Positions 21,293 through 64,000 of a stretch of DNA of 64,000 nucleotides are shown here, piece after piece. Every line of letters begins with the position of its first letter. Position 1 is the first letter of the stretch. The notes under the pieces were generated by a model that ran no database searches, was not told where the DNA came from, and worked only from the letters and a program-made list of their open reading frames with translations. The DNA is from Pseudomonadota bacterium. Its GTDB lineage: Bacteria; Pseudomonadota; Gammaproteobacteria; Burkholderiales; Rhodocyclaceae. The stretch is from the NCBI GenBank assembly GCA_018241725.1, contig JAFEDI010000103.1:124001-188000 (forward strand). Direction: 5' to 3'. The position numbers were made by a program, and so were the translations under genes.

Positions 21293-21778
<486 letters not shown>

Positions 21779-61349: not shown

Positions 61350-61823
61350 CTACTGAGGCCGCCCGTTGGCAGCAATCATGCGGATGATGCGCACCGTATC
61401 CACGTCCGATTCCCGGTACGCCGACTTGACGAATTCGGACACCTGCACCACTTCGCCCTCGGCAGCGTTCTCAGAGAGAGTCGTCTCGTACATGAAACGG
61501 AGAAAAATTCTCGTTGAATCAGGGGTTTCGAGCCTGATCGTAAGCGTGCCACCGGCATGTTCGGCGGTCGCCCGCGATTCGAAGCACATCCACTCCTGCG
61601 CACGATAGGTGACCGTGTCGCGGATGCTGGCCTGCCCGAAGTGGAGAACCCGTTCCACCTGGCTCTCGCTGCGCGACAGGATCTCGCAACGGTCCAGCCC
61701 CGGCAGGAAGATCCCTGGCTCTTCGACCCGATACATCAGGCCGGTCCACACCTGCTCGACGCTCAGCGACTCGATGAGCGGGTTGAGGGGATTGTTGATC
61801 TCGATGAGATGTTCGAAATGCAA
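61350..61823 (-). CDS. SRPBCC-fold protein of the DUF1857 (AtaL-like) group
   Basis: A 157-residue cytosolic START-like protein: EIN-NPLNP opening, then LSVEQVWTGLMYRVEEPGIF, DRCEILSRSESQVERVLHF and the antiparallel strands LTIRLETPDSTRIFLRFMYE. The group is widespread; its ligand is unknown and the binding cavity is inferred from the fold. It lies between the aminotransferase and the EamA transporter on the same strand with gaps of 42 and 29 bases, so one transcript is likely. Confidence 0.82.
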   Translation of the reverse strand: MHFEHLIEINNPLNPLIESLSVEQVWTGLMYRVEEPGIFLPGLDRCEILSRSESQVERVLHFGQASIRDTVTYRAQEWMCFESRATAEHAGGTLTIRLETPDSTRIFLRFMYETTLSENAAEGEVVQVSEFVKSAYRESDVDTVRIIRMIAANGRPQ

Positions 61824-61852
61824 GAAGTGGCTCCCTAAGTTCGTCGCGCAGT

Positions 61853-62758
61853 TTAGCGTCGATTGAAACCAGTCGTCAGCCAGATGCCAGCAAGAATCAT
61901 CGCTATTCCGAGCAGATGGTACAGCTGCGGCACTTCGCTGAGAAAAATGGCGGCCAGGATCGTGCTGAAAACTGGCATCAGGTGGATGAACAGGCCGCCT
62001 TTCGCAGCCCCTACCTCGGCAACAGCGCGGTTGTAGAACACGTAACCGAGAAAAGCCGGAAAGACTCCCGTGTAGACGATGCCGGCGAACGCCATCGGCA
62101 CTGGATGCAGAACCGCTCCCGTAGCCAGTTCACGCCACGCAAACGGCAGCAGGATCACCAGGCCGATCGCCGTCAGCGCCGCCAGCAGGGCCATCGGATG
62201 CACACCGGGGGGACGCCAGCGCAGGCCCAGGGTGTACAAAGCCCAGGACAGTACCGCCGCCAACATCCAGACATCCCCGACATTCAGGCTCAATCCGGCC
62301 AGGATTGCCGGATCACCGTGGCTGACGATGGTCAGCACGCCACAGAAAGAGACACCGACACCAAAAAGCTCGAGTCCCTTTGCCCGATGACCGAAAAACC
62401 AGGAAATCGCGATGATCGCGATCGGGATGAAGGAATTCAGCAGCGCCGCATTGGTAGCCGTGGTATGGGCAAGGGCGATGTAGGCCAGCGTGTTGTAGGC
62501 ACCGACCCCCAGTATGCCCAGCACCAGCATCACGACCCATTGCCGAAGATCCAACCCCTTCAACGTCCACCGATGCGGCCAAGCAAAGGGGAGGGTCAGC
62601 AGAAAAGCCAGAATCCAGCGCCCGACAGCCAGGGAAAATGGAGGGACCAGGTCCCGCATTCCCCGCCCAACCACCATGTTGCCTGACCAGAACAGGACGG
62701 TGAGCGTCAACAGAAGGTAGGGATGGCCGAGAAAACGTGGGTTGCGGTGATCGAACAC
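61853..62758 (-). CDS. EamA/DMT-family transporter
   Basis: A 301-residue inner-membrane protein with ten helices in two EamA repeats (YLLLTLTVLFWSGNMVVGRG; AAVLSWALYTLGLRWRPPG), ending AAIFLSEVPQLYHLLGIAMI. The substrate is unknown. It starts with GTG at 62758 with only a weak Shine-Dalgarno; a frame open further upstream enters the AT-rich repeat and looks non-coding. It differs from the EamA gene at 54 kb. Confidence 0.9.
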   Translation of the reverse strand: MFDHRNPRFLGHPYLLLTLTVLFWSGNMVVGRGMRDLVPPFSLAVGRWILAFLLTLPFAWPHRWTLKGLDLRQWVVMLVLGILGVGAYNTLAYIALAHTTATNAALLNSFIPIAIIAISWFFGHRAKGLELFGVGVSFCGVLTIVSHGDPAILAGLSLNVGDVWMLAAVLSWALYTLGLRWRPPGVHPMALLAALTAIGLVILLPFAWRELATGAVLHPVPMAFAGIVYTGVFPAFLGYVFYNRAVAEVGAAKGGLFIHLMPVFSTILAAIFLSEVPQLYHLLGIAMILAGIWLTTGFNRR

Positions 62759-63117
62759 GAAAACGGTTTCTGGATGCGTTGACGCGGATTATCAGCGAGA
62801 ACCGTCCTCTCGGACACGACGATTGCTGTGCTGCCAAACGGGGTTTGTGTGGGTGTGGCTCCTGCAGTTCAGCTTGGTGTTTTGTTCTTAGTTTTTCTTT
62901 ATATATATAAGACTCTGTTAACGGTACACCGCTGTTTTCTGTGGATAACCCAATAAAACATTTATGATTCAAAGCCTTGAATAAGGTAAAAGGTTCTGGA
63001 GAACAGCACTAACAGCACGGGGACAGATTGGGGAGGAAAATTCCGTTTCCCGTAGATCCCTGGCTTGTCCACATTTCCTGCGCCTGTTTACCGTCTGCTT
63101 GTACACAGGAAGCGGCT
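62759..63117. other. 359-bp AT-rich gap with DnaA-box-like sites and repeat copy A
   Basis: No gene is supported here. It holds repeat copy A (62891-62986), a perfect inverted DnaA box TGTGGATAA at 62940-62948, and two near matches: TTGTCCACA at 63065 and TTGTACACA at 63099. On the minus strand it also serves as the upstream region of the EamA gene. Confidence 0.6.
62891..62986 (+). repeat. AT-rich DnaA-box repeat, copy A
   Basis: It begins GTTTTTCTTTATATATA, which is identical over 17 bases to copy B at 63453. Aligned parts then include TGTTAACGGTACACCGCTG, the box TGTGGATAAC, an AAAACATTT block and a closing ATAAGG. The two copies are in the same orientation, ~560 bases apart, and match clearly but imperfectly over ~100 bases. 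Confidence 0.75.
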
Positions 63118-63387
63118 TCAGAGGGTTTCCGTCAGCGGATACTTGCGGGAAAAGTAGCTGTAGGCTTTGTTCAGGTGGCGTCTACGCAGGAAGTCGAACT
63201 GTTTCTCGGTGATAGATAACTGGTCCCGGAACATCTGATGTACCAGATAAAGTCCTTGAGGGGTCTTCAACAATTCCTTGGCAAGTCCGTGAGCCTGATC
63301 ATCGGAGAGTCCGGTTGCGTCACGTACGATTTGTACGGTTTCCCAGTCCACTTCGATGAAGTCCAGCAAGTCGGTGATCGAAAGCAT
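63118..63387 (-). CDS. Orphan 89-residue protein between two repeats
   Basis: A small soluble protein of no family I recognise. It opens MLSITDLLDFIEVDWETVQI, continues VRDATGLSDDQAHGLAKELL and ends in a basic region (FDFLRRRHLNKAYSYFSRKY). Helical throughout; the middle looks like a UBA-style or winged-helix three-helix bundle, but this is only an impression. AAGGA precedes the ATG at seven bases, so it is probably translated. It is flanked by repeat copies A and B, B lying just upstream of its start. Confidence 0.7.
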   Translation of the reverse strand: MLSITDLLDFIEVDWETVQIVRDATGLSDDQAHGLAKELLKTPQGLYLVHQMFRDQLSITEKQFDFLRRRHLNKAYSYFSRKYPLTETL

Positions 63388-63452
63388 GGAGATTCCTTTG
63401 CGGTCGCCGTGGCTTGTTGGACACGGGCTCAGGTTGATAGAGATTGTTGACT

Positions 63453-63555
63453 GTTTTTCTTTATATATAAGTACTGTTTACGTTTACGCTGCGAGCATTT
63501 TTGTGGATAACACAAAAAAACATTTTTTTATCAATGTCTTGATACGTTGATAAGG
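63453..63555 (+). repeat. AT-rich DnaA-box repeat, copy B
   Basis: The partner of copy A: GTTTTTCTTTATATATA, then TGTTTACGTTTACGCTGCG, a perfect inverted DnaA box TGTGGATAA at 63502-63510, an AAAAAACATTTTT block and GATAAGG. A near-match box TTGTGCACA follows at 63627. It lies 66 bases upstream of the orphan gene (minus strand) and in front of earP (plus strand). Confidence 0.75.
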
Positions 63556-64000
63556 ATGTCGGAAAGCGACTGCATAGTGTGTGGGAGGATTGTTGAGGAA
63601 ATTTTGCCTCGCCGCCGAAAGAAGCTTTGTGCACAATCTGTCCGCCCGTCCATCCCCGATTTGTCCCCAGTTTTGTCGAAACGTTCTCCCTCTTCCGCTC
63701 CCCTTGCGCCTACCGAGGGCGTTTGGGATGTGTTTTGTCCAGTTGTAGATAATTTTGGCGATATCGGCGTGTGCTGGCGCTTATCCCGGCAACTGGCAAC
63801 GGAGTACCGGGTTGCTGTGCGCCTGTGGGTAGATGACCTGAAGGTCGCCCGCCGACTGATTCCCCAACTCGATGTGCTTGCCATCAGCCAACAGATTGAT
63901 GGTGTGGAAATTCGTCACTGGAGTGTTCCGTTGCCGGACATCGAACCTGGCGAGGTGGTGATTTCGGCTTTTGCAGGCAATCTTCCCGACGCTTTCCTCC
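63556..64000 (+). CDS. earP: EF-P arginine rhamnosyltransferase EarP (3' end cut by window)
   Basis: The conserved N-terminus of EarP, WDVFCPVVDNFGDIGVCWRL, begins at 63724 and continues VAVRLWVDDLKVARRLIP and VVISAFAGNLPDAFL to the window edge. EarP moves rhamnose from dTDP-rhamnose onto an Arg of elongation factor P so that ribosomes can pass polyproline; VDNFGDIG lines the active site. efp normally follows. The start is uncertain: ATG 63556 is the first in-frame ATG but adds ~56 odd residues; GTG 63577 or TTG 63673 are alternatives with poor Shine-Dalgarno sites. Confidence 0.85.
   Translation, partial: MSESDCIVCGRIVEEILPRRRKKLCAQSVRPSIPDLSPVLSKRSPSSAPLAPTEGVWDVFCPVVDNFGDIGVCWRLSRQLATEYRVAVRLWVDDLKVARRLIPQLDVLAISQQIDGVEIRHWSVPLPDIEPGEVVISAFAGNLPDAFL

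Follow-up and report, generated by a model that had tools for sequence, protein, structure and literature searches.

Two tandem modules upstream of earP form a probable chromosomal replication origin, away from dnaA, in a Zoogloea-type betaproteobacterium

A duplicated element at the right end of the DNA analysed here is very probably oriC, the origin of chromosome replication, in a Zoogloea-type betaproteobacterium; it is made of two tandem modules and located away from dnaA. This assignment is based on computed features of the element: its anatomy, its conservation, the GC skew around it, its uniqueness in the genome and the contrast between its location and that of related modules in relatives. 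An origin was one of the roles proposed by an earlier sequence-only reading, and this option is strongly supported, as the skew minimum lies here and R1, a model built from module-1 sequences, matches the genome of the window at these two places only.

Sequences and methods

The window, that is the whole stretch of 64,000 nucleotides that was analysed, corresponds to positions 124001-188000 of contig C4 (289.6 kb), which carries both modules and dnaA. The source genome (G000) comprises 5.93 Mb in 151 contigs. Coordinates are those of the window unless preceded by a contig or genome name. The genus comparison included 23 genomes, G000 and 22 others, several of which are fragmented drafts; earP was found in 22 of them and is absent from G001, which is 72% complete. 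Conservation counts given below are not independent because these genomes are related.

Model R1 was made from 18 of 23 module-1 sequences, 17 from members of the genus and one from G031, a member of another genus of the family; G012, G015, G019, G020 and G022 were omitted from its training. Genomes were searched with R1 at E <= 0.01 with stricter filters, and the best 60 candidates were scored per genome. Matches to module 1 in the 17 genomes and in G031 are expected by construction; matches to module 2 are independent of the model, and the module-1 matches of the five left-out genomes are likewise outside it. The earP tree contained 19 genus genomes and five others (G008, G010 and G014 of the genus are missing). 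Column tests, for IHF-like sites and DnaA-trios, were made on 22 aligned rows for module 1 and on 21 rows for module 2, from which G008 is missing.

Results

Both copies of the element carry an AT tract, a DnaA box and an IHF-like site

The sequence-only reading had described two direct copies of an AT-rich element with DnaA boxes, and the duplication is present where it had been placed. Direct repeats at 62882-62907 and 63444-63469 are 85% identical with a spacing of 562 bp, and a second pair, at 62936-62980 and 63498-63542, is 80% identical with the same spacing. Both copies have the same layout, an AT tract, 29-31 bp, the box TGTGGATAA, 18 nt and an IHF-like site, and in each module an opposed DnaA-like box is found 125 bp beyond the DnaA box.

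Module 1 (62895-63012, plus strand) scores 88.0 bits with R1, its own sequence being in the model. It contains AT tract 1, a candidate DNA-unwinding element (DUE; TTTATATATATAA, 62898-62910); DnaA box 1, the counterpart of box R1 of Escherichia coli, which reads TTATCCACA on the minus strand (62940-62948); and, 18 nt past this box, IHF-like site 1 (ATTCAAAGCCTTG, 62967-62979, plus strand), which has one mismatch and is tied in G000 by another one-mismatch site at offset 3. The opposed DnaA-like box TTGTCCACA (63065-63073, plus strand), 125 bp from box 1, is followed by a weak DnaA-like box, TTGTACACA (63099-63107, plus strand). Module 2 (63456-63568, plus strand) scores 47.1 bits, with a sequence that is outside the model. 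It consists of AT tract 2, also a candidate DUE (TTTATATATAA, 63460-63470), DnaA box 2 (TTATCCACA on the minus strand, 63502-63510) and, 18 nt past it, IHF-like site 2 (TATCAATGTCTTG, 63529-63541, plus strand), which has no mismatch. Its opposed DnaA-like box, TTGTGCACA (63627-63635, plus strand), is 125 bp from box 2 and is conserved across the aligned genus rows. The two perfect boxes and the three near matches are those that had been pointed out from the sequence. In the window, the motif TTWTNCACA occurs five times for 0.89 expected, a number reached by none of 100 shuffles. An Rfam search of 61500-64000 gave no match up to E = 1.

The element is flanked on the left by a gene for an EamA-family transporter (61853-62758, minus strand; PF00892, 1.9e-45) and on the right by the 5' part of earP (63547-64000, plus strand; TIGR03837, 3.3e-36), the true start of which lies between 63547 and 63724. 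It was also observed that two more exact TTATCCACA boxes are present on the same strand at C4:188031 and C4:190407 (window 64031 and 66407), less than 3 kb from module 2, and that four of the eight exact TTATCCACA boxes of contig C4 fall inside 3.5 kb.

The module pair is conserved in the genus

Two modules are present upstream of earP in all 22 genus genomes that have this gene. R1 gave exactly two matches, adjacent to each other, in 22 of the 23 genus genomes, and none in the incomplete G001. The occurrence of many similar elements throughout the genome had been named beforehand as an argument against an origin; R1 reports just these two places in its own genome. The module pair is therefore more than a chance arrangement. 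Box 1 is an exact TTATCCACA in 20 of the 22 genomes and has one mismatch in two. Box 2 is exact in 16 and reads TTTTCCACA in five; in G008 there is none within one mismatch. In 16 of 22 genomes the opposed box TTGTCCACA and box 1 are 124-125 bp apart; the other six have, as judged by eye, two-mismatch forms thereabouts.

The modules resemble the DUE-R1-IHF half of E. coli oriC

The IHF consensus WATCAANNNNTTR was compared with columns fixed by the DnaA box, and mismatches were counted out of 9. The best position was 18 nt past TGTGGATAA in both modules, with a mean of 1.59 mismatches in module 1 and 1.38 in module 2, compared with 3.32 and 3.81 at the next-best offsets and a mean of 5.8-5.9 over offsets. 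When the best IHF-like site of each row was taken irrespective of offset, the mean was 1.55 in module 1 (2.34 in shuffles, sd 0.15) and 1.24 in module 2 (2.41 in shuffles, sd 0.15), and this best site was the one at offset 18 in 12/22 and 13/21 rows respectively; these row statistics are not independent because the rows are related.

In E. coli K-12 oriC, TGTGGATAA is followed after 18 nt by GATCAACAACCTG, which is given as the IHF sequence in the available part of PMC4285127. Comparison of R1 with the E. coli oriC stretch gave a score of 13.9 bits, with an E of 0.0039 in 86 kb; this result serves as a check rather than as a search, because the stretch had been picked beforehand. The modules share with the DUE-R1-IHF half of E. 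coli oriC the AT tract, TGTGGATAA, the distance of exactly 18 nt, the IHF site and the polarity: a predicted IHF-binding site lies 18 nt past TGTGGATAA and the AT tract is on the opposite side of the box. In contrast with E. coli, the Zoogloea module is doubled, and its neighbours are earP and the EamA gene instead of mnmG and mioC. The E. coli oriC is likewise apart from dnaA, at 43 kb.

The basal unwinding system, made of a DnaA box and DnaA-trios, also places a box beside an AT-rich tract, a feature shared by the modules; B. subtilis-type trios were not found in them. With the definition given in the available part of PMC8287927, a set of three or more trios inside 16 bp was present in none of the 22 module-1 rows and in 4 of the 21 module-2 rows, and trio runs were on average shorter than in shuffles, with no enrichment. 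This reading was rejected.

The GC-skew minimum coincides with the element

On contig C4, taken as a whole, cumulative GC skew is lowest at C4:186688 (window 62688), a point 207 bp to the left of module 1. The dnaA gene (C4:113101-114513, minus strand), at a distance of 72 kb, sits on a local high of the skew curve. The sequence-only reading had considered that a skew minimum and a dnaA gene both located far away would speak against an origin: dnaA is indeed distant, but the skew minimum sits at the element. Gene-strand bias was uninformative, with 28 of 52 ORFs on the plus strand to the left and 47 of 80 to the right.

In other genus members, skew minima were taken from fetched stretches rather than from entire contigs. 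The minimum was 1.7 kb from the modules in G012 (C23, 160-360 kb; minimum 267650, modules 269375-269881), 0.5 kb in G020 (C71, 20-220 kb; minimum 104309, modules 103126-103800) and 0.5 kb in G016 (C706, 60-180 kb; minimum 154146, modules 154644-155317). In these three genomes dnaA is 64-93 kb away (203975-205390 on C23 in G012); it adjoins the skew maximum in G020 (dnaA 196324-197733, maximum 196177) and in G016 (dnaA 68927-70342, maximum 70483). The earP genes of G020, G016 and G021 are 81-92% identical to that of G000, and that of G012 is more distant (66%).

In G006 the minimum found within 100 kb on each side, at 927503, is 12 kb from the modules. When 30 stretches along the 1.4-Mb contig of this genome were compared, the sign of the skew flipped across the module: the 18 stretches to the left had a skew of -0.023 (5 positive) and the 12 to the right +0.024 (9 positive), and the best contig-wide splits were at 0.92 and 1.03 Mb, equally good. 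In conclusion, skew marks the element sharply in four of the five genus contigs examined, since the minima of G000, G012, G016 and G020 are within 1.8 kb, and roughly in G006. An inversion of the segment between dnaA and the modules could displace the skew minimum.

Related modules are adjacent to dnaA in most of the relatives examined

The search with R1 also covered one genome from each of 13 further genera of the family. Matches were beside dnaA in nine, at earP in one (G031, which is in the model) and nowhere in three; G025, G029 and G033 had two matches each. The gaps next to dnaA contain apparent pairs of boxes 124-125 bp apart in G023, G027, G028, G033 and G035 and 99-101 bp apart in G025, G032 and G034. 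By R1 the dnaA-side modules of other genera are the same module, and box pairs occur there too; they differ in location, as those of the window's genus and of G031 are upstream of earP. On the earP tree G031 groups with G029 (90/86), apart from Zoogloea. In 24 genomes of other families, R1 had matches in five, of which three are beside dnaA, one is about 5 kb off and one is G042. Skew did not mark the dnaA-side modules of G032, where the minimum is 30 kb off, or of G027, which has no local minimum there; therefore, these are called origins on the basis of the module itself.

On the simplest reading, the origin was relocated from dnaA to earP in an ancestor common to the genus, with dnaA and parS left behind; we infer this direction from the position of the module, beside dnaA, in most relatives. 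It was also observed that G042, a complete-looking genome, has two modules (C1:5138120-5138608) 48 kb from dnaA, between LysR-like and pyrB-like ORFs (named by eye). In this genome the skew minimum of 280 kb, at 21680, is nearer dnaA, and both a box and an AT run are present in the dnaA gap as well. In the lineage of G042, oriC may have moved a second time, independently.

The alternative that survives best is that the real oriC of the window's organism is at dnaA, the element being a DnaA-titrating or DnaA-ATP-controlling site comparable to datA or DARS. These sites are composed of DnaA boxes and an IHF site, have no unwinding tract and are located away from the origin. As in datA and DARS, IHF-like sites are present in the element, and dnaA, rpmH and parS-like sites remain together 63-72 kb from it. 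Two parS-like sequences are present at C4:122953-122968 and C4:123746-123761 (1048 and 255 bases to the left of the first window position), near dnaA and 63 kb from the modules; in six relatives parS-like sites are at most 16 kb from dnaA. The rpmH-dnaA gap of G000 contains one exact DnaA box. However, AT runs of 11 or more are missing from this gap, the 1.2 kb following dnaA contain no box within one mismatch (dnaN starts less than 90 bp after dnaA), and the combination of boxes and an AT tract is lacking around dnaA. In the element, by contrast, an AT tract stands at an R1-DUE-like distance from each box. Furthermore, the skew minimum is at the element in four of five genus contigs, the dnaA genes of G000, G016 and G020 are on a local high, and related modules adjoin dnaA in other genera. 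An element with AT tracts at the skew minimum departs from datA and DARS on both counts, and we consider a site of this type very unlikely.

A side observation in this region concerns a stretch of about 45 kb beside dnaA (C4:65-110 kb), which has a low G+C content (0.50-0.61) and is island-like.

A small gene lies between the modules in about half of the genomes

The orphan gene of 89 residues noticed between the two copies corresponds to an ORF at 63118-63387 (minus strand), here called p89, for which neither Pfam nor NCBIfam gave a match up to E = 1. Its dN/dS is 0.03-0.19 in seven pairs, three of these values being rough because dS is above 1; p89 is a real gene. An orthologue is present between the modules in 12 of the 22 genomes and missing from there in 10, a distribution that needs three changes on the earP tree. 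Box 1 and box 2 are 560-592 bp apart where p89 is present (in 11 of these 12 genomes; not measurable in G008) and 354-431 bp apart in the 10 genomes without it.

A p89 relative with 25-30% identity is found elsewhere in 20 of the 23 genus genomes. Outside the genus, relatives were found in Thauera phenolivorans (53% identity) and in two beta-proteobacteria (47%), with no module in the flanking DNA available. For T. phenolivorans this holds for the surrounding 6.3 kb, in a record where a repeat and a series of unread bases are found close to the gene. In the search for p89 relatives, two modules were present at 11 of 15 loci. AlphaFold predicts five helices for p89 (mean pLDDT 85.7; residues 5-10 under 50). 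Comparison with the PDB gave a best E of 0.074 by sequence and no match by fold (best E 3.6). A relationship to PhoU was rejected, as in a 19-member alignment the best value, 0.0092, came from just 2/19 members and the matches were scattered and weak; an NCBIfam family, with one weak match (0.0063) in 1/19 members, was rejected as well. From its position, one might guess that p89 has a role in initiation.

Each copy of the element is upstream of a minus-strand gene, p89 or the EamA gene, so the repeats could be a duplicated pair of DnaA-controlled promoters for these two genes. However, the modules persist without p89 in 10 of 22 genomes, and without an EamA match in the upstream stretch in 8 of 22 (the G005 and G008 contigs are short). 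A scan of 62700-63800 yielded no sigma-70-like promoter, a weak argument as shuffles average 0.9, and promoters would leave the coincidence with the skew minimum unexplained. We regard the promoter pair as highly improbable; DnaA-controlled transcription may be a secondary role of the element. Finally, although a small gene of no known family flanked by repeats recalls the origin of a plasmid, or of another mobile element, that has become integrated, this possibility is negligible, as the element is beside earP in all 22 genus genomes having earP, no initiator gene was recognized by eye among the ORFs of C4:183-197 kb, and the skew minimum at the element is that of the contig that carries dnaA.

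Discussion

The computed features of the element are those expected of a chromosomal oriC. Its DnaA boxes adjoin an AT-rich candidate unwinding tract, R1 finds a single locus per chromosome (22 of 23 genus genomes), and position and architecture are kept among relatives (22 of the 22 with earP). The skew minimum coincides with it in G000, G012, G016 and G020 and is not sharp in G006. Adjacency to dnaA/dnaN, a usual but non-essential trait of oriC, is not observed: in the eight genus genomes that have both on one contig, 36-93 kb separate the modules from dnaA. The other 14 have module and dnaA on separate contigs, or no full dnaA match.

By analogy with E. coli, we infer DnaA and IHF binding, unwinding and firing as follows. 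DnaA would bind the strong R1-like box of a module, and IHF, 18 nt past this box, would bend the DNA. A DnaA oligomer would then open the adjacent AT tract, onto which the helicase would be loaded. Two modules might provide redundancy, serve one fork each, or be one active and one regulatory. A more specific scheme, in which both modules are complete and have their own DnaA-IHF opening (for example one per fork), p89 tunes initiation and the whole has moved as a block, is conceivable and on balance doubtful.

oriC is usually flanked by dnaA, though not in many bacteria, according to the available part of PMC4285127, and a cyanobacterial oriC is described as far from dnaA and dnaN in that of PMC6323995. 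In bipartite origins, which are found in Epsilonproteobacteria (PMC5043019, in part), the spacer gene is usually dnaA and the DUE is in one half (PMC4285127 and PMC5043019, available parts). Origins distant from dnaA and split origins are thus both already known from these three sources, as far as they were available. Two DnaA-box sub-origins around a gene are found in 12 of the 22 Zoogloea-type genomes, as in B. subtilis, Helicobacter pylori and other Epsilonproteobacteria. Unlike in those bipartite origins, an AT tract is present in both halves, and the spacer is p89, or there is no such gene, instead of dnaA with a DUE in one half only. By title, none of the literature matches listed describes two AT tracts with a non-dnaA spacer, in a search whose scope did not extend to subscription papers and DoriC tables. 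By title again, none concerns the replication origin of Zoogloea or Accumulibacter; two papers, available in part, are genome tables. We conclude that the element is very probably a bipartite oriC with two AT tracts and a spacer other than dnaA, at a distance from dnaA.

Zoogloea is a floc-forming genus of activated sludge. The present results place its probable origin where annotation based on dnaA would miss it. They provide a natural case in which oriC is separated from dnaA and parS, most of the examined relatives having the module beside dnaA, and in which an E. coli-type DUE-R1-IHF module occurs as a tandem duplicate. The reason for the splitting of origins was called unknown in a 2015 review (PMC4285127, available part); a spacer gene that some related species have and others lack is a natural experiment on this question.
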